From NCBI GenBank assembly GCA_003290165.1, contig QNQO01000531.1, positions 1 through 64,000 on the forward strand: a DNA stretch of 64,000 bases, in the 5' to 3' direction. The stretch comes from Berberis thunbergii (taxonomy: Eukaryota > Streptophyta > Magnoliopsida > Ranunculales > Berberidaceae). The translations under genes and the position numbers were made by a program. The notes below the pieces were generated by a model. That model was not told the DNA's origin. It saw only the letters and a program-made list of their open reading frames with translations, and made no database searches. This document shows positions 7,824 to 57,984 of the stretch, in pieces. Position 1 is the first letter of the stretch, and each line of letters starts with the position of its first letter.

Positions 7824-8719
7824 TTATGGGCAACGCCTCCAATTACGAACGGTACCTCGAATCAAGGGCGGCGCCTGGTTGACTTCTTGTTGCATCAGTT
7901 CTCCCCCTCTCAAAAGAAACTCGTCCTCAAGTTTGACTAAGGCAATAGTTTTTGGCCTATGGTACTCGTACAATTCTTGGACACTGATTGTTTTCAAGAT
8001 TGCATACGCATCCAGAAGATCAATCTTGTGAAGGATTTGAAATGGCCCTATCTTTTTTTGCTTAAGCTTGTTGTACTTCCCAGCTGGAAGTGGTTCTTTG
8101 CGCAAATGAACCATCACAAGATCCCCTTCGTGAAATGACTTCTAGAGTATGTAATGGGGGGGGGGGGGGGGGGGGGGGGGGGCGAATGCAAACAATTCAA
8201 AAGGAGATTTACCACTTGAACGATTTGGCACGTTGTTGTAGGCCAATTTAACTTGTGGTAAAACATTATCCCATTGTTTTTTTTTCTTTAATCAAGCATC
8301 GCGACATATTTCTCAAGATACGATTTGTAACTTCAGTTTAGCCCATCAGTTTGTGGATTACACATGCTGATATATTGTAATAATGTATCAAGCCTTATTC
8401 ACAAAGTACGCCAAAATGACTAAGAAATTTGTTGTGACGATAAGAAACTATGATCTTTAGTAACCCATGCAGACAAACAATCTCTCGAAAGAACAGCTGA
8501 GCAATATGGGTAGCATCTGAAGTCTTTTTGCAAGGAATAAAATGAGTCATTTTAGAAAAAATATCAACAACAACATAGATAGAATCCAAACCGTTTTGTG
8601 TCTGTAGTAGTCAAAATGAAATCCATTGATAAATCTTCCCAATGAACATTAGGAATAGAGAGTGGCATGTAGAGGCCGGTATTTTGAGCTTGTCCTTTGG
8701 TAGTCTGGCATGTATAATA
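7824..8719 (-). pseudogene. Gypsy integrase core and C-terminal region, 3' part of split gene
   Basis: From 8719 downward: [17 protein letters not shown], then [18 protein letters not shown] (integrase core, first catalytic Asp), then PQTDG near 8355, then the C-terminal block VHLRKEPLPAGKYNKLK and KKIGPFQILHK at 8117-8000. Integrase inserts element DNA into the host genome. Frameshifts and a 27-G run at 8156-8182 break it. The N-terminal part is separated by the Helitron. Confidence 0.85.
8156..8182. repeat. 27-nt poly-G tract
   Basis: An uninterrupted run of 27 G inside the gypsy integrase region, where the coding frame is lost. It may be a real slippage-prone tract or a sequencing/assembly artefact. 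Confidence 0.9.
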
Positions 8720-11138: not shown

Positions 11139-12123
11139 TCAGACTAGCATATAACTTATTTTCCCGCAATGTTTCAAAAACCTCCCTAAAATGTATAGAT
11201 ATTCTTCCTTACTATGGCTATAAATAAGGATATCATCAAAGTAGACGAAACTCTTTGTTCCAATGAATGGTTGAAATATCTGATTCATTAGTCTCATGAA
11301 AGTGCTTGGAGCATTGGATAAACCAAAATGCATAACTAGCCACTCGTACAGTCCTTCATGTGTTTTGAATGTCGTTTTCCATTCATCACCAAGAAGAATG
11401 TAGATTTGATGGTACCCACTCCGTAGACCATTCTTGGAAAATATTTTTAATCTTCCCATTCTATCAAGCATATCATCCAACCGGAGAATAGGAAATAGAT
11501 ATTGTACCGTAATCTTCTTTATAGCTCGACTATCAACGCACATCCTCCAGCTTCCATCTTTATTCGGAGTTAGGAGTGCATGTACAGATATAGGACTCAT
11601 GTTGTCATGAACCATGCCCTTTTTTAGGAGATCTTTGGCTTGTCCTTGCAAAATCTCATATATTTTTGTGACTCATACGGTAGTGTGGCAAGTTAGGTAA
11701 ACTTGTTCCTGGGACAAGATCGATATGGTGTTGAATATCTCTCAATGGTGAAAGTCCAGTAGGTGGTTCATTGGGAATAATATCACTGAATTCTGCTAGC
11801 AGATGATGAACTAGATCTAGCACATTTTGCGAAATTGGTTTTTCCTTTGGCACCAAAAGGAGGTTGGTTTTGGTATTCGAGCATGTCGGACTATTTGACT
11901 GCTTCATTGGGGCGAGAATAATTTTCACATTGTCTTTATAAAATGGGTATGTATTATTTTTGCCATCGTGTGTTGTATTCAGGTAGAATTGCCACGGTCG
12001 ACCAAATAAAATATGACAAGCATCCATATCAACATCGTACAATATCTCGTCATGCACTTGCCGATGGAGAAAGGAATGCGACGTTGCTTTGTTACCCATG
12101 TCTCGCCAACATCTTTGATCCAC
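11139..12123 (-). pseudogene. Gypsy protease tail and reverse transcriptase remnant
   Basis: 12123-11656 encodes the protease-to-RT linker ([17 protein letters not shown], with the typical (L/F)GRPW motif). 11651-11139 encodes the RT palm and fingers, including [14 protein letters not shown] and the catalytic [11 protein letters not shown]. One frame break separates the two parts near 11653, and the RT frame runs out near 11139. RT copies the element RNA into DNA. Conserved aspartates remain visible, but the polyprotein is not continuous. Confidence 0.88.
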
Positions 12124-18112: not shown

Positions 18113-19368
18113 TAGGGGTGGGCACGGTCCGGATCGGTTCCAAATTTGAAGGAACCTAACTCGAACCGTTTACATTTTAACGGATCCGGTCCGGTCCGGA
18201 TCCCTTCATTTTGATAATAGGAACCGAACCTAACTCGAACCGTTTAGAACGGTTCGGTTCCACGGTTCCAAACGGTTCCAAACTTCCAGAAATCGATCAT
18301 ATTCATACAATAAACAGAAAATCGATCATATTCCAGAAATCGATCATATTCATACAAATATACAATAAGAGAAAATTGAAAAAGAACAATCAAAAGATCA
18401 CAGTCTGTTTTAAATAATCAAATGAAAATAGAGTTCTCAGATAAAATTGAAATGTTACCTGTTTTGATTTTCCAGATCAGTCTGTAGAGCAGAGTGACAG
18501 TGCCAAGAGAAAAAAATATCTCAGAGAATGATTTTCCAACTACAATTGAAATCATCAATGATGAAACCCATTAGCAACAAAATTGAAAAACAACTCAGAG
18601 AGAAAATGAGAAGGTTTCGGTTTGTATTACCTTCAATTTGTGTGAGCGAAATACAGAGCTTTGCAATGGAAAGAGCTAATCTTGTATGCTAATTTCAAAA
18701 CTTGGAAACAGCTCAACACACCCCAATGTGAAACCAAATCTTGAATGATGAAGTAACCCTTACAAAGAAAATCAAACAAAGATATGAAAGAAGCCGTAAA
18801 ATTAGTGTAAAGAAAACCAAACAAAGATCTGAAAAGAAGCCGTAAAATCAGTGTAAATACCCCCAAGAAATCGAGCAGCAGAAGAGAAGGCGAGTAGCAG
18901 AAGAGAATCGAGCGAGCAGCGAGGAGAATCGAGCTAGCAGCGAGGAGAATCGAGAGAACAGCGAGGAGAATCGAGCGAGTAGCAGAGGAGAATCGAGCGA
19001 GTAGCAGAGGAGAATCGAGCGAGCAGCGAGGCGAGTAGCAGAGATGGCGAGTAGCAGATGAGAAGGGAGTAGCAGAGGGAGAGGGAGAGGCGACTCGATT
19101 TCCATTTCTTTTACAGAGAGTCAGAGAGAGAGAGAGAGAGGGTTTTGATTTTAGTAAATGTAAAGAAAAAAAAAATTGTAATTTGAAACGGGTCCAACCC
19201 GGACCGTTTCATTTTAAAAAATTGGAACCGGGACCGGACCGTTTTATAACGGATCCGGACCGATCCGAACCGTACCAAAAAATTCATATATAAAATCCGG
19301 ACCGTTTAGAGCAAAACGGTCCGGTTCGGTTTGAACCCGCGGATCCTCGACCCGTTTGCCCACCCCTA
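18113..19368. mobile_element. hAT-type non-autonomous element (copy 2, long form)
   Basis: Ends TAGGGGTGGGCACGG..GCCCACCCCTA are flanked by an exact 8-bp duplication ATATTTGG (18105-18112 and 19369-19376). The subterminal regions carry repeated GGTCCGG/CCGGACC motifs. The 1256-bp interior holds short ATCGATCATATTC repeats (18290-18350) and a minisatellite (18870-19060). No transposase is present. It has the same ends as 14861-15395 but a different interior. Confidence 0.92.
18870..19060. repeat. Purine-rich minisatellite (GAGCGAGCAGCGAGGAGAAT-like)
   Basis: About eight irregular units of roughly 20-24 bp with the core GAGGAGAATCGAGCGAG. It lies inside the long hAT element, and the minus-strand frame across it simply reads the repeat. 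Confidence 0.75.
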
Positions 19369-29915: not shown

Positions 29916-30058
29916 ATTCTTAGCAAGGGCGGAGCCATACGTGCGCTCACTCGGGCTACAACCTGGGTGAAATTTTTAGAAAAAAATAAATGAATTAATT
30001 TATTAAAAATCAATAAAATGATAAATTACGCAAAACTTACACTACACCAAAAACCCCC

Positions 30059-30449
30059 ATTAGCAACGGTTCTATACCGTGGGCGTAAGCCATTGCCACG
30101 GCTAAGAGCCGTGGACTACAGGGGCGTCGCGAAATCCTTTGTAACGGCTAAAAACCGTTGCTAAAATTGTAGCAACGGTTTTATGCTTGAATGGGGGGCG
30201 TGATTTTTAGAAATTAGCAACGGTTATAAACCGTTGCAATCATAATAGCAACGGTTTTTAGCCGTGGCAACAATAGCAACGGTTTTAAGCCGTGACAAGG
30301 TGTAGATATTAGCAACGGTTTTAAGCCGTGGCTAATTAATTAGCAACGGTTTTAAGCCGTGGCTAACTCTAACCACGGTTATAAGCCGTGGCAAGGTAGC
30401 CACGGTTTTTAGCCGTTGCAATAGTTAGCCACGGTTTTAAACCGTGGCA
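30059..30449. repeat. CACTA subterminal repeats, left end
   Basis: More than ten copies of an inverted-pair motif built from TAGCAACGGTTTTAAGCC and GTGGCTAA. The motif is self-complementary (AACGGTT..AACCGTT), so it forms many small hairpins. The matching right-end array is at 37879-38067. Confidence 0.92.
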
Positions 30450-30587
30450 AATTTTTTTTTTTTTTTTTCTATCAAATGCCTTTGAGTCATTGAGTCAAAA
30501 TTCTATCAAATAATGGAGGCAAAGTAATGTAATTAATAAGAAAATGTATTACATTGAGTCAAAATCTCTCAAATACAATGACACACA

Positions 30588-30681
30588 TTATCTAGTGTAG
30601 GGAATCAATGTTCTTTTATACGAACACACAACTTTAGTTCTTTATCAACAAACCATTATCTAGTGTAGGGAATCAATGTTC
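30588..30681. repeat. 64-bp tandem duplication at the golgin 3' end
   Basis: The sequence CATTATCTAGTGTAGGGAAT with its continuation to GTTCTT occurs at 30588 and again at 30652. The golgin stop codon (TAG at 30662-30660) lies in the right copy, so the duplication extends the 3' UTR without touching the frame. Confidence 0.8.
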
Positions 30682-31962
30682 TTGCTAAGCTCGTCGAGCT
30701 TCTTCATCCTTAATCTTTCACTCTCGCTTACCAGCTGTGCATGAGGACAACACAATGAAAATGAATCAGCAAAAATATTTGGAAAATATGACGAGATTTA
30801 GTCAGGTTTATGATATTCCAGTCAAGATGAAGACTTTACCTCCATTAACTTTGTTATTAGTTGAGCTTTCTCCTTGTTCTTGTCATTTAAAGCTTCAAGT
30901 GCTTCCTTGTATTCCTTCTCCTGTAATCAAACCAGTTGTTATCTGGTTAATCAATTCTCTTTTTGTCTGATCATTTGATCACAATAGTACATGACGATGA
31001 ATTCTATTAAAGAGTTTAATTAATTCAGGGAATGTTAACTTTAATCTGACGAAAACATGAAGACCAAAAAATGATTGAAATAAAGTATAGATGTTGTACC
31101 TTCTTCTGGCAGCTCTGACCAAGAGGCTTTAACTCTTTGTTAACTGTGTCAATTTTCTTGCGTACCGCTGCTACTTCCTTTCTCATGGGATCTGCTAGTC
31201 CTTCAAGTTCCTGTAAGAATTATATGTTTGGTTTGTTGAGAAGATGAATGAAATTACTTCTCTTGAATAAATCACAAAAATTTGGTTTGTTTAGAAGATG
31301 AATGAAATTACTTCTCATTAACAAATCACAAAAACAGGAACTTATTGCAATAACTTTCACTTAAAACTCTATGTTGGTTGCAAAGAAAAAACTCCATGAA
31401 AATAGTGAAAAATAGAAAGGGAAGAGAGTAAAGAAATTCCCTCCTGTCTGGTCTCTACCTTTTCACTGTTTTTCATGGAATTTTTTCTTGCAAACTAAAC
31501 ATAGCTTAAAGTAGATTAATTCATTCAAGTAAAACTAAGCAGTCCTAGAAATATCAGACTGATTGATGTTTCATCCATATGAGCTCTTTATGGTTTAATT
31601 TGTGAACCAACTAGTGTCAAACTATTATGCTAAAGTATAAACCAACCAGTGCAAGATTTTTGACTTACTCCTCGAATCACAGCCAAGCGCCTGGTTTCTT
31701 CTTCAACACGGCCGAGCTGTGCTTTAACCTTCTCCCTGACCTCCAACTTCTTCCTTTCGATCTCCTCCTCCTTAGCTCGAAAAGTAGTTAGAGCAGATCT
31801 CATCATTTCCTTGTCTTTGTCTTCCATCTTTTGACTCTCACTAGGACTTATTGTGGTGGTGGTATTATTCCCTGTAGTAGTGCTCTTCACCTGCTGAATC
31901 TGCGACCGTTGCTGCTCCAACACCTTGAATCCTGGCAGGCTTAGAGAATTCATACTTGTCAT
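30660..31962 (-). CDS. RAB6-interacting golgin, apparently complete captured copy
   Basis: Four exons: 31962-31669 (98 codons), 31210-31100 (37), 30920-30840 (27) and 30734-30660 (24 plus stop). All are phase 0 with GT..AG introns, giving an open 186-codon frame. It begins MTSMNSLSLPGFKVLEQQ and has an acidic charged centre (EEEIERKKLEVREKVKAQLG), ADPMRKEVAAVRKKIDTVNK, EKEYKEALEALNDKNKEK and SESERLRMKKLDELSKNI at the C-terminus. It is almost entirely coiled coil, matching plant proteins named RAB6-interacting golgin, which act at the Golgi membrane. A Gly replaces the expected Glu at the exon 1/2 junction. The gene lies wholly inside the CACTA element. An acceptor at 31967 suggests it may be spliced to an upstream exon. 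Whether it is expressed is unknown. Confidence 0.8.
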
Positions 31963-32177
31963 CAGGCTGCAAGAGCAAAAGGTAGAGTTTCAATGGCTGT
32001 TGAGACAAATTTTAGTTCATCAATAAGCAAGAAAGCAACAATGATACATACTCTTAGATGAAGGGTAATTTGTGTATTTTTCATTTTTCTTCAAGTTAAA
32101 CAACAAATTATTCAAAGCCTGTAGGAAACACATACAAATATCCATTTTTTCAAATACAAAACCAACTAATAACTTAC

Positions 32178-32968
32178 CTGACAAGCAATCCGATGACAGA
32201 TACATGTTCATTGCTCATCTTATTGACAGTTTCATGAGTCCTTTGCTAGTGTTCAGAAGCAGAGTTGACAGTACTGACACTGCAACAAACCACATTATCA
32301 TCCAAGAGTGAACCTAAAGATATAGCTTGAATTGAACAACTATCAAAGCATGAGACACCGTCGTAAAGAATACTGACCACTTTTGGTGGATTATCTCCAT
32401 ACGACAGTGTTTAGCTGGAGAAAAATCAGCAGCATCTTTGGCACCATTCTCTGCTTGACTAGAAAATTCTTGCCATTTTCTCTTGGCATCTGATGATATG
32501 CCTGTCAAGGATGATACACATTCATCCATAAATGCTTTATTTTCAAGAGTGGTATCTCTCAGACCAGTAAGCTGTGTATTTACCTGCAGAAAGGATGTCC
32601 ACCTGTTACACTAAGTCCAATTTAAAAAGGGGAACAACCCATGAAAATCACAAAATATACCAGTTCTTTTTTACGGCGAATATGATTGGAGACCAAGTTG
32701 GCCATTTCTGCCAAAAGTTTCTCATATTCAGACTGTGTCTGTTCCTGTACTTGTGGAAATTGGAATGATAAAATATCAGATGGATTACATGAAAATATAT
32801 CTCTGGTTTCCAAATCTAAGGGCATGACTATAGTCTATAGACTATAGCATTATACCTCATAAGCCTTCTGAAATTCTGCAATACTCTGCTGCTGGATCTC
32901 ATGGTTTTGTTTTGTATGGTTGTCCAGTTTACACTAAGGCGTGCCTGACCAATGATGTCAACCCATTT
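32178..32968 (-). pseudogene. Captured kinesin-5 C-terminal exons, fused to Exportin-1
   Basis: Four exons with normal splice sites: 32968-32856, 32744-32661, 32583-32378 and 32279-32178. They encode HEIQQQSIAEFQKAYE, EYEKLLAEMANLVSNHIRR, then VSSLTGISSDAKRKWQEF and AAKHCRME-like DFSPAKHCRME, then THETVNKMSNEHVS. This is the C-terminal tail region of plant kinesin-5 (BIMC/KRP125 type), a mitotic microtubule-sliding motor. The motor domain is absent. In the first exon, positions 32968-32928 are Exportin-1 sequence, and the kinesin sequence starts at 32927 in a different frame. The last exon has an in-frame TAG at 32248-32246. It is a non-functional fragment. Confidence 0.85.
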
Positions 32969-33208
32969 CTGCAGGAAAACCTTCTAATTAAGACCATGAA
33001 CAATCGATTGACAAGGTTGAAAGCTAAAGAAGTATAGCACAAAGTGATCCAGGCACGAATTCAGTATATAAAAAATCCTAAGAGTTTTGACTTTCAACTT
33101 CACCACCTAAAATATGTACAAGTGGAGAATTTACCTGATTTGGGAGTTCCATCAACCTTTGCAGATATTCATCCCTCTTCTGGGGATCAGATTCTGCTTG
33201 AATCATAT
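32928..33208 (-). pseudogene. Captured Exportin-1 (CRM1) fragment
   Basis: An exon ending at a GTAAAT donor (33135/33134) encodes GNMIQAESDPQKRDEYLQRL, then MELPNQ. The next exon, from 32968, continues KWVDIIGQARLSVN. This is the conserved HEAT-repeat segment of plant Exportin-1, the nuclear export receptor for NES cargo. The match stops at 32928, where the sequence changes to kinesin-5 within the same exon. On the upstream side similarity fades near 33208, and the preceding in-frame residues (KKLLETFMLLLSSENKL) are not Exportin-1 that I recognise. Only about 50 residues of a protein of roughly 1,070 are present. Confidence 0.8.
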
Positions 33209-33309
33209 TACCAAGTTTGTTTTCACTTGACAAGAGCAACATAAATGTCTCCAAGAGTTTCTTTACATTGTTGTTGGCAAAGCACAAAAAAAAAAGACAT
33301 ATCAACTAA

Positions 33310-34172
33310 ATGAAAAATCAGATCATATGCAGCAAGCAATGATACAAGAATGTAGCATTCAGATTTGTACTTGTTCATATATATAGTTTCCCTTTGCATG
33401 GATTACACAAATCAAGGGACCTAACCCCTCCTCTTTGCTAACTGTCTAAAAACATTCAGGTTGTTGAAAATCACGGGCTATTAGAACTAGTCAAAAAAAA
33501 AAAAAAACCCCATAACTGAAGTTTCTCGTTTCTGAATGAGAAAATACAAAAAGTGAACGAATAGAGTTGAAAACCTTTTTCTTTATCAAACAAACATAGA
33601 AATATATTAATAAACGCCTCCAAATGTGTGTGAACATATCTGCAGCTGAAGACTGTAGCTAGCACACAGTAAATGTATTTATAGTTGTTTGTGCTTGTCA
33701 AAGATTGGACTAATACCTTCAGAGAATTTGAAACTAAACATCTGACCTTCATTATGAGATTGAGCACTTCAAGAATAAACATCTATCAAAAGCTAAGCTC
33801 ATATACTGAGGATATCCTTGCTTTATCTACAAGTTTATTCCCTCTTAACTGGCCATACATTGAGAAGTAAAATTGTAACTGATCTTATTCAGTAGACATT
33901 GTGTTTACACAGATCTATATATGGCACCATGTGAGTTTTACGAAAACAATTAAACTCTCCATGGCTAGCAGAGAACCAACACACATATAGACACAAGAAC
34001 TGGTCCTCATAAAATAAAGCACAAGCCAGACAACCTGTTATTTGGACTCAATAAACTGGAGTATCCAGACATTGACCTTGGCTCTTGTCCATTTTGATAC
34101 TATGAAAATCTAAGAAGCGGGTACTGTGATACAAGATGAAATTTCCTAACTGAGAATAGCCGAGAATCATAC
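33310..34172. other. CACTA interior between captured genes, unassigned
   Basis: Between the TMEM33 and Exportin-1 fragments I see AT-rich, intron-like sequence with a poly-A run at 33495-33507 and no recognisable exon on either strand. Confidence 0.4.
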
Positions 34173-35289
34173 CTGCCAATACATGAATGTTTGAATTATG
34201 TTGCGTTGCCATCTGAACCAGGAGAGTTAGATTATTAGTGGATCTTTAAGTTAGCATGCAGTAGACAAATAAACAATAGCGAAAACTTACGAGAGCAACG
34301 AGATGATTAGAATAAAACCCATTCATATTTCAGCATGAGAAGTCAGTATACTGAGTGTAGTTATGTTTGATTCCACCCACAGGCAAGGCTCCTCCAAGTA
34401 CTTCCTGCTCATAAACAATACACCATTCAGATTTATCTACATTAATATAGCAAAACTGAAATCACCACAAATTTATGAACTTGAGGTTTCATAAAGAAGA
34501 TAGTATGGCTTATCAGATGTCACATCAGATGCAAATAAATACGTGTATTCAAGTTTCCTGGGTACGAATATTCAAGTTCGAAATGAAAAATTTATTATTG
34601 TTATCGCACTAAACAAATCCATGAATCATAGGTGAGCCCACGTACCCCTCTCAAGTTTCCTGGGTATGAATATTCAAGTTCGAGGTATCAAATTCAGAAG
34701 TTCGAAATGACGGAATCAAATTCACAAGTATTTTTTGGTCATCACCTATACAGAGAGGATCGGCTGAAATTGCGTCTTAGGAACTTAGCCACATGCTCAA
34801 CAGCTCGACAAAGCACATGTATCAATGCAACTGCCATGAAAATTAACATCAGCTAATACTTGATGTAACTAGGAAAGATAACACTGCATCCGTATAATAT
34901 CATCAAGAAAAGACCATATATCAACTTCAAGGAGTAAAATTTACATTTCAGCTGAAGATGGGATGAGACAAACATGAGGCAGTAGAGGAAGTATATAAAA
35001 TCTTTGGTAGCATAAATTGATTGCAACCATAGTTGAACAGCCTGCATGTTCCACGCCCTCGGTTTCTGAAACAAAGAATCAGTGATTCATGCAAGAATAC
35101 CAAATTAAGGAAAACTCACAAGGCATTCAAAAGATGACAAGTTGGAGTTGTTAGTATTATTACCCCGTGCAGCGAATATAAAGAAACCAATGATGTACCA
35201 AGGGTGCCCATAAATGATAGCCTATATGCCCTATTTGAAAGGTTTCTAGGTATAAGCGGCAAAGTCGCAAGTACAGCCACAATAAATAT
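34173..35289 (-). pseudogene. Captured TMEM33-homologue exons
   Basis: Five exons with correct splice sites and matching phases: 35289-35164, 35065-34945, 34830-34746, 34404-34291 and 34212-34173. They encode IFIVAVLATLPLIPRNLSN, KPRAWNMQAVQLWLQSIYA, HVLCRAVEHVAKFLRRNFS, KYLEEPCLWVESN and WQRNIIQTFMYWQ. This matches the plant transmembrane protein 33 homologue, an ER multi-pass membrane protein, lacking its first and last exons. One nonsense codon (TGA at 34325-34323) replaces an expected Gly in exon 4. The family name is from memory of these motifs. The exon structure itself is plain in the sequence. Confidence 0.75.
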
Positions 35290-36941
35290 CTGCACGAGAT
35301 CAAAGCACACTGAGTATTAGGAATGGCAAAGCAAAACACAAAAACAAAGGAAACTATAGAACATGCAAAAAACACCAGTCTCATGTCAAGAACTGAATGC
35401 AATTGTACTTGTGTACTTTTAAGTATGCGTCAACTACCTTACACTGCATATTAATATGCATGCCTACTTATCGCCAACATCCCAGGATCATCCAAAATAA
35501 CTCTTCAAATAAATGTACGATGAATAGAAATTCTTTAATTTATAGAGAAGGGTACTAAGCTACAGTTGTATAGAGGCGATGTGGTCAGGACACTTGCACT
35601 GGAATCCCCATTTATATGTTGGACGAGGATACCTGTTGTGTTTGTGAAGAAAAATTTTAAGTGGTACCTATACCAAAGTTCGTGACAAAATGTCCCAGTT
35701 GGCAAATTTATGATCATACAATGAACAAATGATCCAAAAAAAAATGCACATTAGAAGTTAAAAACACTAAGAAACAGGCACATGGCAAACACTCTGTCAC
35801 TTCCAATGAAGCTCAAGAAGCGATAAGTCGTTTAAAGTAAAAGTATGTCCTAACCTTTGGAATTGTACGCCCTTCCAATAATCAACAGAAAAATAATAAA
35901 ATATAAATACAAAATTGTTAAATATAGAGAACTATAAAAATATATTTAAAAACAAATAAAAATGCAAGAGCTGAAGCTTTAAAGCTTGCATTCAGTTACA
36001 ACTGACAAGAGGAAAAGAACACTAATACCAAAAAAAGGGTCAAAACGCCTCCATGAAAATGAAACCATCAGGTATATTGGCTGATTAATCGTGATATTTG
36101 GATGCAGTCATGGTCTGGGAAGTATGTGATATGTAGGATAATGGTAAGTGAGAGGATTTTATCAGCTTCTTTTTTTTTTTTTTTTTTTTTTTAAATATTG
36201 AACATAAATAGGTTTTCCCACTTGCATATACAACAAAGAACAAACTGAAGGGGCATGGTTTCCAATTGAATACAAACAAGAAACATTAAAAACTGAAAAA
36301 AAAAAACAAAAAAGGAGTAGGCTGAGGTAAGACCACTAAAAAGGAACAATCGTTATCCATGCAACAACTTTTGCAATGCGAAGGCATAAAACTTAAAAGG
36401 GATGGTCAAGAAAAATTTAAGGAGATTGCCCCATATTTAGAAGCATGTCTTTGGGTTTCAAAGACTGAAAGCAAGCAACTTCATAGCAAAATAAAGTACA
36501 TGGAGATCATATGGTTCATCTGATAACTTTTCCTGTTTAAGAATGTTGCTTCCTATCGGATAAATCTCAATTGCTTGTAAAAGCACAAAATAAATAAATT
36601 ATTTGCAATTGTAAACCACCAAGAGAATATCAAACCTCACCGTAAACAAACTAGCATGTTTCATTACGCAAACCTCACAAGTTCACAAGAATCAGCATGA
36701 CACATATGGCCAATACTCCATTAAAAAACATTCATTAGAACAAATTTTGGTATCAGAAAGAATTTATCTTAAATTGCATAACCTTAGTTACCACAATCAC
36801 ATGTGAATGTAAACAGATAATCTCAATATAGCTAACTCAAAATTAATGAATCAAGTCAAGCTAGTAAATGTTAGCATATAATCTGATCTGGAATTATAAT
36901 CGAAAGCAAAAACATAATGAAATTAGTGATTCACCACTCAC
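35290..36941. other. CACTA interior between BT1 and TMEM33 fragments, unassigned
   Basis: No recognisable exon. A 22-nt T-run at 36171-36192 and short AT-rich repeats are present. If transcribed from the BT1 side this whole stretch could act as one intron, because both neighbouring exons are phase 0. Confidence 0.4.
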
Positions 36942-37388
36942 CTCAATAGCCTTACTAGGTGCAACCCGAATCACATTGACCAAATTACCCCGAAACAAAC
37001 GCTTCCATCCATCATTCTTAATAATTGACTGTAACACTTCAGTGCTAGAATGCCCACTGCTCCCAACCATCAAATGAGTCCTTATAGTCTCCAATGGCGC
37101 AACCGCTGTGCGCGAAACCGCACCTGCCATCCCCCCACTGATCAACCTCCTCAATGCAGGATTCTTAATCTTAACCTTAAACTTAATCCCACCCCTCTTC
37201 TTCTTCACCATCTCTTCTTCCACTTTCTCCTCCTCAGGAGCCCCAACAATCCGAAACCCGAATTCGGGCGTCGTAACATACTTCACATACAAATCAGTAT
37301 ACGGAACCTTCAACCCATTATCCCTCGAATTCGAAAAATTGGGAGAGAACCCAAATCCTGTCCCCATCTGTCCAACACTTGCAAACAA
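36942..37388 (-). pseudogene. Captured exon 1 of BT1-type adenine nucleotide transporter
   Basis: The frame of 149 codons from LFASVGQMGTGFGFSPN through KIKNPALRRLISGGMAGAV, then SRTAVAPLETIRTHLM (the mitochondrial-carrier signature PxExxRxxL), then GWKRLFRGNLVNVIRVAPS, ends SKAIE before a GTGAGT donor (36941). Plant Brittle-1 carriers export or exchange adenine nucleotides across plastid or mitochondrial inner membranes. The usual N-terminal residues before LFASVGQ and all later exons are missing, so only the first carrier repeat remains. There are no stops or frameshifts in the exon, so capture was recent or the sequence is constrained. Confidence 0.88.
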
Positions 37389-37439
37389 CTCTCACCAATT
37401 CAAAGAAGCAAATAACTAAGTGGAACTGAAACATCTTAC

Positions 37440-37870
37440 CTGGAAGGAGATCTGAACCAATTTGAGAGCAAGGCGAGAACCTCTTCTCCTCGCTGGAACC
37501 CCTCCTCTTCGCTGGATCTGAGATCATGGCAGAGAGCTCCTCGCTGGATCTGAAGCTCTCGCTGGATCTGAAGCTCTCGCTGGATCTGAAGCTCTCTCGC
37601 TGGATCGGAGAATCTGCTTTGGTTCTTCATCTTCTTCTTCAGTTCGTTCTTCTTCAGTTCGTCCTTCTTCGCTGGATCTGAGAATCTCCTTCGAAATTTT
37701 TTTCGCAATGACCGCGCAAACTGATCTAGATCGAAATAGCAAAAAAAATTTCGCCAATTTTTTTCCCCAAATTTTTTCGCCAGAGCGCGAAATCACTCTC
37801 CCCCCATTTTCGCCAGAACGCGAAATCCCTCCCCAAATCTCTCTCTCGCATAAGCGCGGCACGCGCAAAA
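37440..37870 (-). repeat. Short tandem repeats upstream of the captured genes
   Basis: About four copies of an 18-20 bp unit (GCTGGATCTGAAGCTCTC) at 37540-37610, and two copies of a TTCGCCAGA.CGCGAAAT unit at 37778-37828. A GTAAGA splice-donor-like site lies at about 37440 on the minus strand. This stretch sits between the right subterminal array and the first captured exon, where a CACTA promoter and leader exon would be expected. Confidence 0.6.
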
Positions 37871-37878
37871 CGTTTTAA

Positions 37879-38067
37879 TTTAGCAACGGTTTTTGGCCGT
37901 TGCACAATATAGCAACGGTTTCTGACCGTGGCTAATTCACCCACGGTTTAGAACCGTGGCTAACTATTTTTGTAGCCATGGTTTTAGGCCGTTGGCCACT
38001 CTATCTACGGTTTATAGCCCTGGCAAATGAACCAACGGCTTAGAGCCGTGGCCACCTCCCCGTAGCT
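37879..38067. repeat. CACTA subterminal repeats, right end
   Basis: About seven copies of the same TAGCAACGGTTTxxGACCGTGGC motif family as the left end, in the last 200 bp of the element. Confidence 0.9.
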
Positions 38068-38643
38068 AAACAAGCATTTTGGTGTAGTGTTATAACACTG
38101 GAAAATATATATATTATTATTGGGCATGGCTCTGTGGTAAGGCAATGGTTACAATCCTTTAGTCTCTTGATATATTTATTTATTCGGTTTTATCCATGAC
38201 CCACGCGAAATGGTTTTCTGAACTTTATTATATAAATCAACTTTTATGCAATATAATATATATATATAATTTCACTTTTATAGCCCGGGTCATATCAAAT
38301 TCCGAGTTCCGCCACTGATTGTTGGAGAGATTTTACTCCATATTTTGCAATTCTTCAGCGGTCATTTTCTCCATATGGAAAAAGTCAAAATCAAAATCAG
38401 AGTATGAAGTCAGATGCTATGTAACACCACCATTTTCACTCAGTAAAACAACCACCTCAATGTAACACCACCATTAAATAGGTAAATCTTTTTCCTCTAA
38501 TTTTTCTTGTTTTATGCGGTCTGTCTTCCTGCAACTTCTCCTCTTGCGACCTCATTATCACACGAGTTCTACTTCTTCCTTTTTTCATCTTCAACAACCC
38601 ACTTCCTTCTCCAACAATCATTTTCATTTTCCTCCCCTCCAAC

Positions 38644-56021: not shown

Positions 56022-56730
56022 TCACTTCTGATATTTGAGACAATCCTTCTTCACATGATCTGCTTTCTTGCAAAAGAAACATGTGGCGACCTTATCATGT
56101 TTTTGTTGCACATTTGTCTGTGAAGTCCCATCAGATGTTGTTCCCTTATCTTTAACATAAATATTTCTTTTCTTTTTCGTGATGCCTGAATTTCCATTGA
56201 AAAATGTCGTCATATGAGCACTATGTCTTTTCTCGTTTCAGACATTCCTCTTCTTGCACACAGTGAGCAATGAGCTCATTAACAATCCATTTCTCCCTTT
56301 GAGTATTATAATTGATCTTAAATGAACCAAACTATGTAAGAAGAGAAATCAAAATGAGGTGCACAATGAGATCATCAGAAAACACAAACTTAGGTGTCAT
56401 CATTCTGGAAACAAGATTAGACATTTTCATTATGTACTCCTTTATGTTTTCTTTGTCAGTATATCGCATGGTAACAAGTTTGCTAAAAAGCATACTTGCC
56501 TCCACCTTTTTCGATGCAACAAATCGATCTGCAACCTGGCGTATGAAATCTTTAGCATTTTCTTTCTTAGGCATGGCATCACGAAAAGTTTCAGAAATAG
56601 AGTATTTCATTATCATAAGACTAATGCGATTAGAACGCTCCCACTTTTCATAAGAAGTCTTATCTTTAGTTGAACTAGAATCAGTAGGCTTGGTGGGTTC
56701 ATCAACACGAAACACGTAATCCAAATCCAT
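56022..56730 (-). pseudogene. Copia gag with zinc knuckle
   Basis: 56730-56332 encodes the UBN2-type gag body (SYEKWERSNRISLMIMKYS, then FIRQVADRFVASKKVEAS, then TMRYTDKENIKEYIMKMS). 56213-56022 carries a CX2CX4HX4C knuckle (CFFCKKADHVKKDC). Gag packages element RNA. The two parts are in different frames near 56300-56220, so the gene is broken. Confidence 0.85.
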
Positions 56731-57984
56731 ACACCCAATAACGATTACTATATGCTCTTTTCATTTTTCAAAATTTGATCCATTAAGCACTAGAATGTTG
56801 TTTAAGTTGGTCGATATTGAAGAAGCATTCACTAAAATAACACAAAAGAATAAACTCACTTCAATATATGTACTTCCCATTAAACTTTAATGCATCGATA
56901 TGATAACAGAAAGAAAAGAAAAAAATAACTAGTAATCATCATCATGCAAAATTTTTCTAATTAAGGAGCAAACAAATAGATGAAGGGCAAAACTTAGTAA
57001 ATATAAATTTACATATTTAATGATAGGCCCTTATGAGAAACCGAGCACACCATTACAATTCATGTCTTTAGACAGGCATGGTAATGTGTAAGTGGTTCTC
57101 TCAAAACAACTAAGGCTAATTAATAGAAATAAAATAAAAAACAATGATCTTCCTTTGGGCTGATCATTGAATGCATAAGTGAATTCCAAAAATATTTTAC
57201 TTAAATCAATTACCTTATACCACCAATGAACCGACTAAAATAACAATTTTTCTTTGGGTCGATTGTTATTCGCATGGGTCATGACATAAGCATATGCAAT
57301 CCACAAAAAAAAATTCAAATTCAAATTCAAATAAAATTTCATGAACGAGGTCATTTAAGCGACGTAGCACAAAATTTTACCTAAATTTAAATTTTGAATT
57401 GCTAATTAAAATATATTTGAGGTGCTCCTTAAAATTAGAAATACTTGTATTTCATAAAGTTCAACTTGGGCTTTAAATACTGGGCTTAGACAACACCAAT
57501 ATACAAAAGACGGTGTGTGGGCTTCAAGTCTAGCCCAAGTTACTAACCAACAAACAAACAATTTGGGTTTAACCTGTCCAACCCATACAACATTCCCATT
57601 CACAAAAATAAAGCCCCAAACAGGCCAACACGACCTACTTTAAAACCCCAAAAAAACAAAGGGTCGTCTTCTTCCCCTTTGTCTGTGAATTAGAATATTT
57701 TTTTTAATTTTATTTTATCAAACAACCATTGATGAGGAGAGAGAAGGGGCTGCCGATCGACGATCAAAGGCAAACAACGCATCGAACAAAAGCTACAAAG
57801 ATGGCTCGAACCAAGGTGTGGTCCTGTCCGACGAGCAAAAGCAGACAATCTAGTCCGTTTAGGTCTAGTTCGATGTGTCTGGAGTTGTTCACGTCGTCCG
57901 ATCAAGAGCAATTGTCGACAGAAAAGAAGCCCAGCGATTGAATTAATTAATCAAACAAAGATCCAAACCGCAATTGACCGGAGA

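Follow-up and report, generated by a model that had tools for sequence, protein, structure and literature searches.

Results and Discussion

A Complete CACTA Element in the Window

The window, i.e., the entire 64,000-nucleotide stretch of Berberis thunbergii DNA that was analyzed, contains a complete CACTA element of 8 kb at 30040-38089. The following features define its borders and terminal regions:

29924..38317, no strand: older repeat split by the CACTA element, ends CAAGGGCGGAGC / GTTCCGCCACTG, ~341 b without the insertion (repeat nature judged from its ends)
30037..30039, no strand: TTA target site duplication, left copy
30040..30052, plus strand: terminal inverted repeat CACTACACCAAAA, 13/13, assigned as the element's 3' end
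30040..30472, minus strand: 3' terminal module comprising 11 subterminal palindromes plus an A-tract (reading A in the minus-strand sense)
37389..38089, minus strand: 5' terminal module with 5 subterminal palindromes (37886-38049), a GC-rich leader, a splice-donor motif and an intron stretch of ~50 b
38077..38089, minus strand: terminal inverted repeat, taken as the 5' end of the element, identical at 13/13
38090..38092, no strand: TTA target site duplication, right copy

The two termini, CACTACACCAAAA and TTTTGGTGTAGTG, agree at 13/13 positions and are both flanked by TTA. Among the 630 CACTA/TAGTG pairs in the window with a spacing of 0.5-20 kb, three combine equal 3-b flanks with an end match of at least 10/13, and the pair at 30040-38089 is the only one to reach 13/13; the window has exactly two occurrences of the 9-mer CACTACACC vs 0.22 expected. 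Subterminal palindromic units are confined to the ends, with 11 at 30066-30445, 5 at 37886-38049 and none in the 7409-b interior, and from these array lengths and the leader we infer which end is 3' and which is 5'. The earlier note on this DNA, which had described a CACTA element with exact termini, TTA duplication and subterminal arrays, thus gave exact coordinates. CACTA inverted repeats, a 3-bp duplication and asymmetric subterminal arrays assign the element to the CACTA (En/Spm) superfamily. Helitrons are not known to have terminal inverted repeats or target duplications; both are present here, which speaks against a Helitron. The joined flanks of the element match nothing in the window but themselves, so that no empty site was found within it.

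A partial scan of the element, covering 10 of 33 minus-strand and 10 of 31 plus-strand ORFs (≥45 aa) as well as five joined peptides, revealed no transposase, in agreement with the earlier note; the sole match among these ORFs was ELFN Fn3 (9.1e-4), below the curated cut-off of that family. Likewise, no TnpD-type transposase was detected among the frames of the window element and of other members covered by this partial scan. With host coding DNA between its ends and no transposase in the scanned frames, the element corresponds to the Pack-CACTA / Pack-TYPE.

Host Gene Pieces and Their Identity

Between the terminal modules lie five segments attributed to host genes:

30660..31966, minus strand: plant golgin gene (PF04949), exons 31966-31669, 31210-31100, 30920-30840 and 30734-30660
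32178..32935, minus strand: putative kinesin-5 stalk piece with an in-frame TAG, last exon 32279-32178
32935..33215, minus strand: exportin-1 piece (weak), consisting of exon 33215-33135 and the leading half of fused exon 32968-32856
34173..35289, minus strand: TMEM33/POM33-like gene piece, exons 35289-35164, 35065-34945, 34404-34291 and 34212-34173
36780..37388, minus strand: mitochondrial carrier (BT1-like) piece, exon part 37388-36942 and part of its intron (36780 is a provisional inner limit)

All recognized host exons are located on the minus strand with their introns retained, as had been claimed, and GT or AG is in place at 26 of the 28 modeled exon edges; the two edges that lack it are the golgin stop end and the exportin outer edge. 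Three of the five gene names proposed earlier are supported by Pfam: golgin (Transcrip_act PF04949, 9.1e-73, profile 5-154/154), BT1-like (Mito_carr, 3.9e-18) and TMEM33 (TMEM33_Pom33, 1.8e-6). The exportin-1 assignment is weak: Pfam gives a weak match or none, and in a PDB search the best exportin chains (E 0.065 to 0.097) are outscored by designed repeat proteins. The neighboring piece, putatively kinesin-5, has no credible match in Pfam or PDB and none in NCBIfam. These two pieces are joined within the single exon 32968-32856 in differing frames, with a junction placed by eye near 32935. The description of all five as gene pieces requires one correction, since the golgin gene starts with an ATG at 31962 and retains a complete frame of 186 codons in the window copy; the TMEM33/POM33-like piece, with a TGA, and the kinesin piece contain in-frame stops.

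Of the five donors that the earlier note proposed to search for, one was traced, that of the BT1-like piece, and only as far as a donor-like locus (C9317) with 91% identity, which, given this value, could instead be paralogous to the actual donor. C9317 sets the outer capture break at 37388. The AG that precedes the BT1 ATG (37368) corresponds to an exon-internal position in the donor-like gene and therefore did not originally serve as a splice site. A corresponding search for the TMEM33 donor returned 97-100% copies at 40/40 places scored.

A Multicopy Family with Exchangeable Cargo

In the 2.24 Gb genome from which the window derives, both element ends are found 8019-8114 b apart on at least 12 contigs, window included, and with this the check for other copies with the same junctions, named earlier as support for a gene-capturing element, came out positive. 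Five fully read copies are 99.1-99.5% identical and have five different target duplications, and equal 3-b flanks enclose all ten elements with both ends read (window, L009, L010, L015, L017, L018, L022, L024, L027 and L029). Multiple copies with common ends and junctions are a further property of Pack-CACTA / Pack-TYPE elements. The copy counts may include haplotype pairs, because L016 and L021 share their flanks and the duplication GGT and are probably one insertion on two contigs. In L013 the ends are 13.3 kb apart, which suggests a window-type copy with a nested insert. In 12 of 20 member loci the 10 kb examined contain no second end carrying a matching duplication, nor do the 8.5 kb examined in L030 and L031.

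The cargo differs between members: L029 (7801 b) carries other genes between the same ends, blocks are shared between members, and the interiors are mosaic. With the 3' end as query, 40 of 2738 candidate places were scored, and each aligns with almost all of the 1001-b query at 91-100%; with the 5' end as query, 40 scored places comprise 19 with the whole query, 2 with positions 1-678, and 19 with only the part outside the BT1 piece, where the module consequently adjoins other DNA. Conserved modules of ~0.43 kb (3') and 0.70 kb (5') thus flank exchangeable host DNA, the former being common to L029 with 91% identity over about 0.41 kb. The 5' module contains a conserved splice-donor motif, CCAG/GTAAGATG, that faces the cargo and places the predicted end of the leader at 37440.

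At the 5' joint, the module reads GAGAGTTGTTTCC (L029 and L030; L031 differs from them here), donor-like C9317 reads GGATTGTTTGCAAG and the element reads GAGAGTTGTTTGCAAG, which amounts to a 6-b match. Five internal joints inspected by eye (L024, L025, L028) show matches of 2-5 b in four cases and no clear match at the joint in L025.

One-Way Cargo in the Tested Family Members

For the window alone, five of five genes in one direction has a chance probability of 2/32, which is weak, and a soybean element discussed below appears alike; the earlier statement that this arrangement is unusual does not hold at this level. It does hold for the family: 11/11 Pfam-identified genes, counted over nine further member loci and including the window's three genes, point the same way (two-sided sign test about 0.001; captures perhaps not all independent, as genes could have entered together), vs 0/143 opposite-strand frames of the nine further loci with a credible match. 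These 143 plus-strand frames do not include the window's own, of which 10/31 ORFs were scanned without a match.

A set of 102 minus-strand frames of other members yielded PEP_hydrolase (2.8e-31), KNOX1 (2e-18), DUF819 (4.4e-12), CREG (3.1e-10), HAT_KAT11 (1.1e-5) and ZZ (5e-5), and a second set of 70 yielded PAZ, Piwi, ArgoL1 and ArgoL2 (down to 1.5e-13), DAO_C (2.4e-10) and fn3_3 (8.7e-5); HAT_KAT11 and ZZ were assumed to represent one gene, as were the four Argonaute domains. On the plus strand, 101 frames gave two matches only (0.0055 and 0.0084), and 42 frames of other members gave no Pfam match. The threshold for a gene, E ≤ 1e-4, was chosen after the matches were seen; matches between 1e-4 and 1e-2 come from four further families on the minus strand, not counting KNOX2, and from two on the plus strand. 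PP2A-B55 (2.3e-17) and MetE (2.9e-12) are further sense cargo; both were selected by eye among minus-strand frames alone and stand outside the 11/11, and no host exons were recognized by eye in the plus-strand frames.

The direction count leaves out L013 (20 plus-strand and 24 minus-strand frames). In L012, L016, L028, L030 and L031, which were not read to both ends, the cargo was placed inside the elements by shared blocks, a placement that does not cover L030 1-2075; this segment contains a plus-strand LINE-like frame, named by eye.

Origin of the Directional Bias

We consider it probable that the window element belongs to a multicopy, non-autonomous Pack-CACTA family with exchangeable cargo, a transposase supplied from elsewhere, leader splicing and a sense filter. 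According to this proposal, the element would be mobilized by a CACTA transposase produced from another locus of the genome, and host DNA would enter by patching at the DNA level, either by aberrant gap repair or by fusion of neighboring insertions, the joints being marked by short matches. Transcription would start in the 5' module, and the leader, as predicted from the sequence, would be spliced into captured exons. Insertions with cargo against the element transcript would be lost or silenced, and sense cargo would remain. The element would then resemble an exon trap with a sense filter acting at the RNA level or at capture. A stricter version, in which the 5' module with its predicted promoter, GC-rich leader and splice donor permits only sense cargo and makes spliceable multi-gene chimeras the rule, is tentative, and we judge it somewhat more likely to fail than to hold.

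The earlier note had offered selection for transcription and repeated directional capture as explanations. We prefer selection or a filter linked to transcription from one end, given that members share a 5' module terminating in a leader and splice-donor motif; directional capture is a possible but clearly less likely rival. It would fix the direction by a polar repair or local-insertion event relative to the element, for example if insertions favored one direction in transcribed genes and same-orientation neighbors then fused. The published Pack-CACTA / Pack-TYPE model of local same-orientation insertion and neighbor fusion (PMC8903248) is of this kind, and short-match joints are compatible with DNA repair. 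However, the published orientation effect applies to two transposon copies rather than to how the enclosed gene is oriented, and none of our results points to a strand preference of insertions into host genes.

Chance combined with shared descent is an improbable source of the bias. It would account for the window on its own, and the blocks common to members mean that some genes could represent one event; yet every gene was counted once, and the one-way result was obtained in two sets found by different element ends.

Retention of captured genes for their proteins, by which the coding direction would be selected, is very unlikely to be the main cause. The golgin frame is complete in the window and in 7/20 other copies read, but internal stops or frame breaks affect 13/21 copies (window included), and the TMEM33 and kinesin pieces of the window copy are disrupted. 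In the 17 golgin copies without length change, 19 distinct non-synonymous changes (four of them stops) vs 7 synonymous ones give a ratio of 0.70 per site, which is not clearly below 1. Moreover, variation among the five full copies is higher in exons (38/1999 columns) than in the remaining captured DNA (54/4908 columns), and the 56 splice-site columns show 0 changes, too few to demonstrate constraint.

Hardly credible is capture from RNA, i.e., from a polyadenylated, unspliced transcript beside the 3' module. A minus-strand A-tract does lie between the golgin piece and the 3' array, but introns are retained, and in L029 an A-tract after the same CATTTGATAG context adjoins the 3' array next to different genes, so that it belongs to the 3' module. 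Finally, we give practically no weight to an assembly join or to a normal cluster of genes bounded by fortuitous CACTA ends: no observation in favor of either was found, and the copies at equal span and their different target duplications identify a mobile unit.

Relation to Known Elements and Implications

Pack-CACTA is a known kind of element, and Tgm-Express1 is a close precedent: This soybean CACTA element of 5.7 kb in the wp allele is non-autonomous, contains exons and introns of five unrelated host genes, and gives rise to chimeric spliced transcripts (PMC1947982). It shares with the window element its non-autonomy, the number of host genes and the retained introns, and differs in genes and species; chimeric transcripts were found in soybean and are predicted for the Berberis family. 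Because its marked introns are all GT/AG in the direction of the host transcript, its five genes should point one way, although some predicted frames over the FPK piece lie in minus frames, which is awkward for this conclusion; the paper does not use the word 'orientation' (PMC1947982). Beyond Tgm-Express1 as described there, the Berberis family has the conserved splice-donor motif of the 5' module and the one-way bias over a family.

The Pack-CACTA / Pack-TYPE elements of Arabidopsis, maize and rice are non-autonomous and combine conserved ends with coding sequence taken from several host loci, and in maize Pack-CACTA hold the most loci (PMC8903248); the part of this work used here contains no test of captured-gene direction relative to the element, which was counted in the Berberis family. 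The Tpn1 family of Ipomoea nil (339 elements, mean 7,081 bp, 3-b duplications) similarly combines conserved ends with internal host genic DNA and chimeric transcripts (PMC5105172); it is alike by description, and the passages cited do not mention which way its cargo points. Maize Helitrons, too, are described as acquiring several gene fragments step by step (PMC3288121).

Pack-type transposons are regarded as exon shufflers, and the literature, to the extent drawn on here, describes their cargo without a rule of direction. What the Berberis family appears to add to known Pack-CACTA is a one-way cargo bias over a whole family together with a conserved 5' splice-donor motif. If true, a one-way family with a leader and splice donor would explain spliceable chimeric transcripts, and the sense bias of captured genes would become a count that is possible in any plant genome.

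Structure and Insertion Site of the Element

The CACTA element in the window is intact and 8050 b long. Its two ends agree in all 13 b and have TTA on either side, and its subterminal palindromic units number 11 at the low (3′) end, 5 at the high (5′) end and none in the interior, in agreement with the exact termini, TTA duplication and subterminal arrays described in the earlier note. A long 3′ array paired with a short 5′ array is likewise the arrangement in passages on soybean Tgmt (PMC2613891).

30040–38089, CACTA element
30040–30472, 3′ end module
37389–38089, 5′ end module
29924–30039 and 38093–38317, interrupted putative repeat

The element interrupts this sequence, apparently an older repeat of about 341 b, which has the ends CAAGGGCGGAGC and GTTCCGCCACTG and no second copy found within the window; at a guess, it could be a short hAT-like element whose 8-b duplication has degenerated. 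Ten flanking frames were scanned, and two gave matches: a reverse transcriptase frame (11139–11672; 1.7e-22) and a copia-type gag frame (56335–56760; 1.8e-10). ARAGORN also calls a tRNA-Pyl-like gene at 18209–18282 (anticodon cta), which for a plant genome is probably spurious.

Captured Host Genes

Every host exon recognised in the element lies on the minus strand with its introns kept, which agrees with the earlier reading. Among the five donors named there, Pfam supports three, namely a mitochondrial carrier (presumably BT1), a TMEM33-like gene and a golgin-type gene (which we take to be RAB6-interacting golgin). The exportin-1 piece gave weak PDB matches confined to one protein stretch (best exportin chains, E 0.065–0.097), with unrelated repeat proteins outscoring these chains, and the kinesin-5 identity is presumed. 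In this copy the golgin frame is uninterrupted and complete; the TMEM33 and kinesin pieces contain stops, and a single exon fuses exportin and kinesin out of frame. Upstream of the exportin exon, an open frame at 33216–33290 that cannot be assigned to exportin is maybe an additional small captured piece.

A Family Built from Modules

A search of the genome (2.24 Gb, 11,732 contigs), which the genes and the type of element suggest to be that of a plant, placed the 3′ end at no fewer than 39 sites besides the window (91–99%; 40 matches listed). The 5′ end query was matched whole in 19, partially in 2 and only outside the BT1 piece in 19 of the 40 matches listed, and the BT1 piece with its intron was whole in 23 of the 40 matches listed (98–100%). 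Both ends lie 8019–8114 b apart on at least 12 contigs, the window's included, so further copies of the element do exist. Five fully read elements, with the target duplications TTA, TGA, CTA, AAC and TAA, differ at 0.5–0.9% of aligned bases. Some copy places may be second haplotypes; loci L016 and L021 seem to form such a pair.

Twenty copies fetched by the 3′ end search were compared with the window element. Four (L009, L010, L015, L017) are of its type; the remainder track it from the 3′ end over 1.5, 2.4, 2.5, 3.5, 3.8, 4.2 or 6.7 kb, and then skip forward in it or hold other DNA, the shared blocks keeping their order. Locus L029 shares no more with it than the two end modules (91% and 88%), between which it carries different genes. 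Matches of 2–5 b occur at 4 of 5 internal joints inspected. At the BT1 joint, a donor-like locus on contig C9317 (91%) runs on past 37388, where the element changes to the 5′ module, and C9317, element and module match over 6 b.

A 4.8 kb near-perfect palindrome (96.5%) at L036 (C6569:78500–83300) contains the initial part of the BT1 piece in each of its arms, and contig C185 holds a similar inverted pair, 3.9 kb apart. Two copies, at C170:457265–457474 and C4673:7909–8119, match the final 0.21 kb of the 5′ module in inverted orientation.

Direction of the Cargo

Stop-to-stop frames of at least 45 aa were taken from DNA not common with the window in L012, L016, L018, L024, L027 and L028 (101 plus, 102 minus) and from L029–L031, found via the 5′ module (42 plus, 70 minus); L013 (20 plus, 24 minus) was left out of the count. 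Both element ends were reached in L018, L024, L027 and L029; in the other loci, blocks common to copies place the cargo inside elements, except for L030 1–2075, which holds a plus-strand LINE-like frame (named by eye).

Pfam matches on minus frames of the nine loci
DUF819, CREG: L018
PEP_hydrolase: L028
KNOX: L024
ZZ: L012
HAT_KAT11, Argonaute domains, DAO_C, fn3_3: located to locus set

The 101 + 42 plus frames scanned gave no match below 0.005. With HAT_KAT11 and ZZ counted as one gene and the Argonaute domains as another, the nine loci contribute 8 genes; adding the three from the window gives 11 Pfam genes, and all 11 have the same orientation (sign test about 0.001), at a 1e-4 line set after the matches were known. 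In the range from 1e-4 to 1e-2, the minus frames have WASH-7_mid, TMF_DNA_bd, Baculo_p33 and VTT, besides KNOX2 (0.0034), which is part of the KNOX gene, and the plus frames have RecR_ZnF and a BIRD-IDD finger.

In all eight elements compared (window, L009, L010, L015, L017, L029, L030, L031), the 5′ module ends, facing the cargo, in the splice-donor motif AG/GTAAGATG, preceded by a GC-rich stretch (0.55 at 37441–37600 vs 0.373 for the whole element). Judged from its sequence, the module could serve as a leader exon able to splice into sense-oriented captured exons. Because protein-level selection on the cargo found no support and the exons of full copies, if anything, vary more than the remaining sequence, a direction filter, if real, would act at the RNA level or at capture.

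CACTA elements with multi-gene cargo are described in passages on Tgm-Express1 (PMC1947982), Tpn1 (PMC5105172) and Pack-CACTA (PMC8903248), and gene capture in those of a 2026 review (PMC13317346); no rule for the direction of captured genes was found in the titles, abstract openings and passages of the open-licence literature. The window element is therefore of a known kind, and it is the one-way cargo across the family that is worth following.
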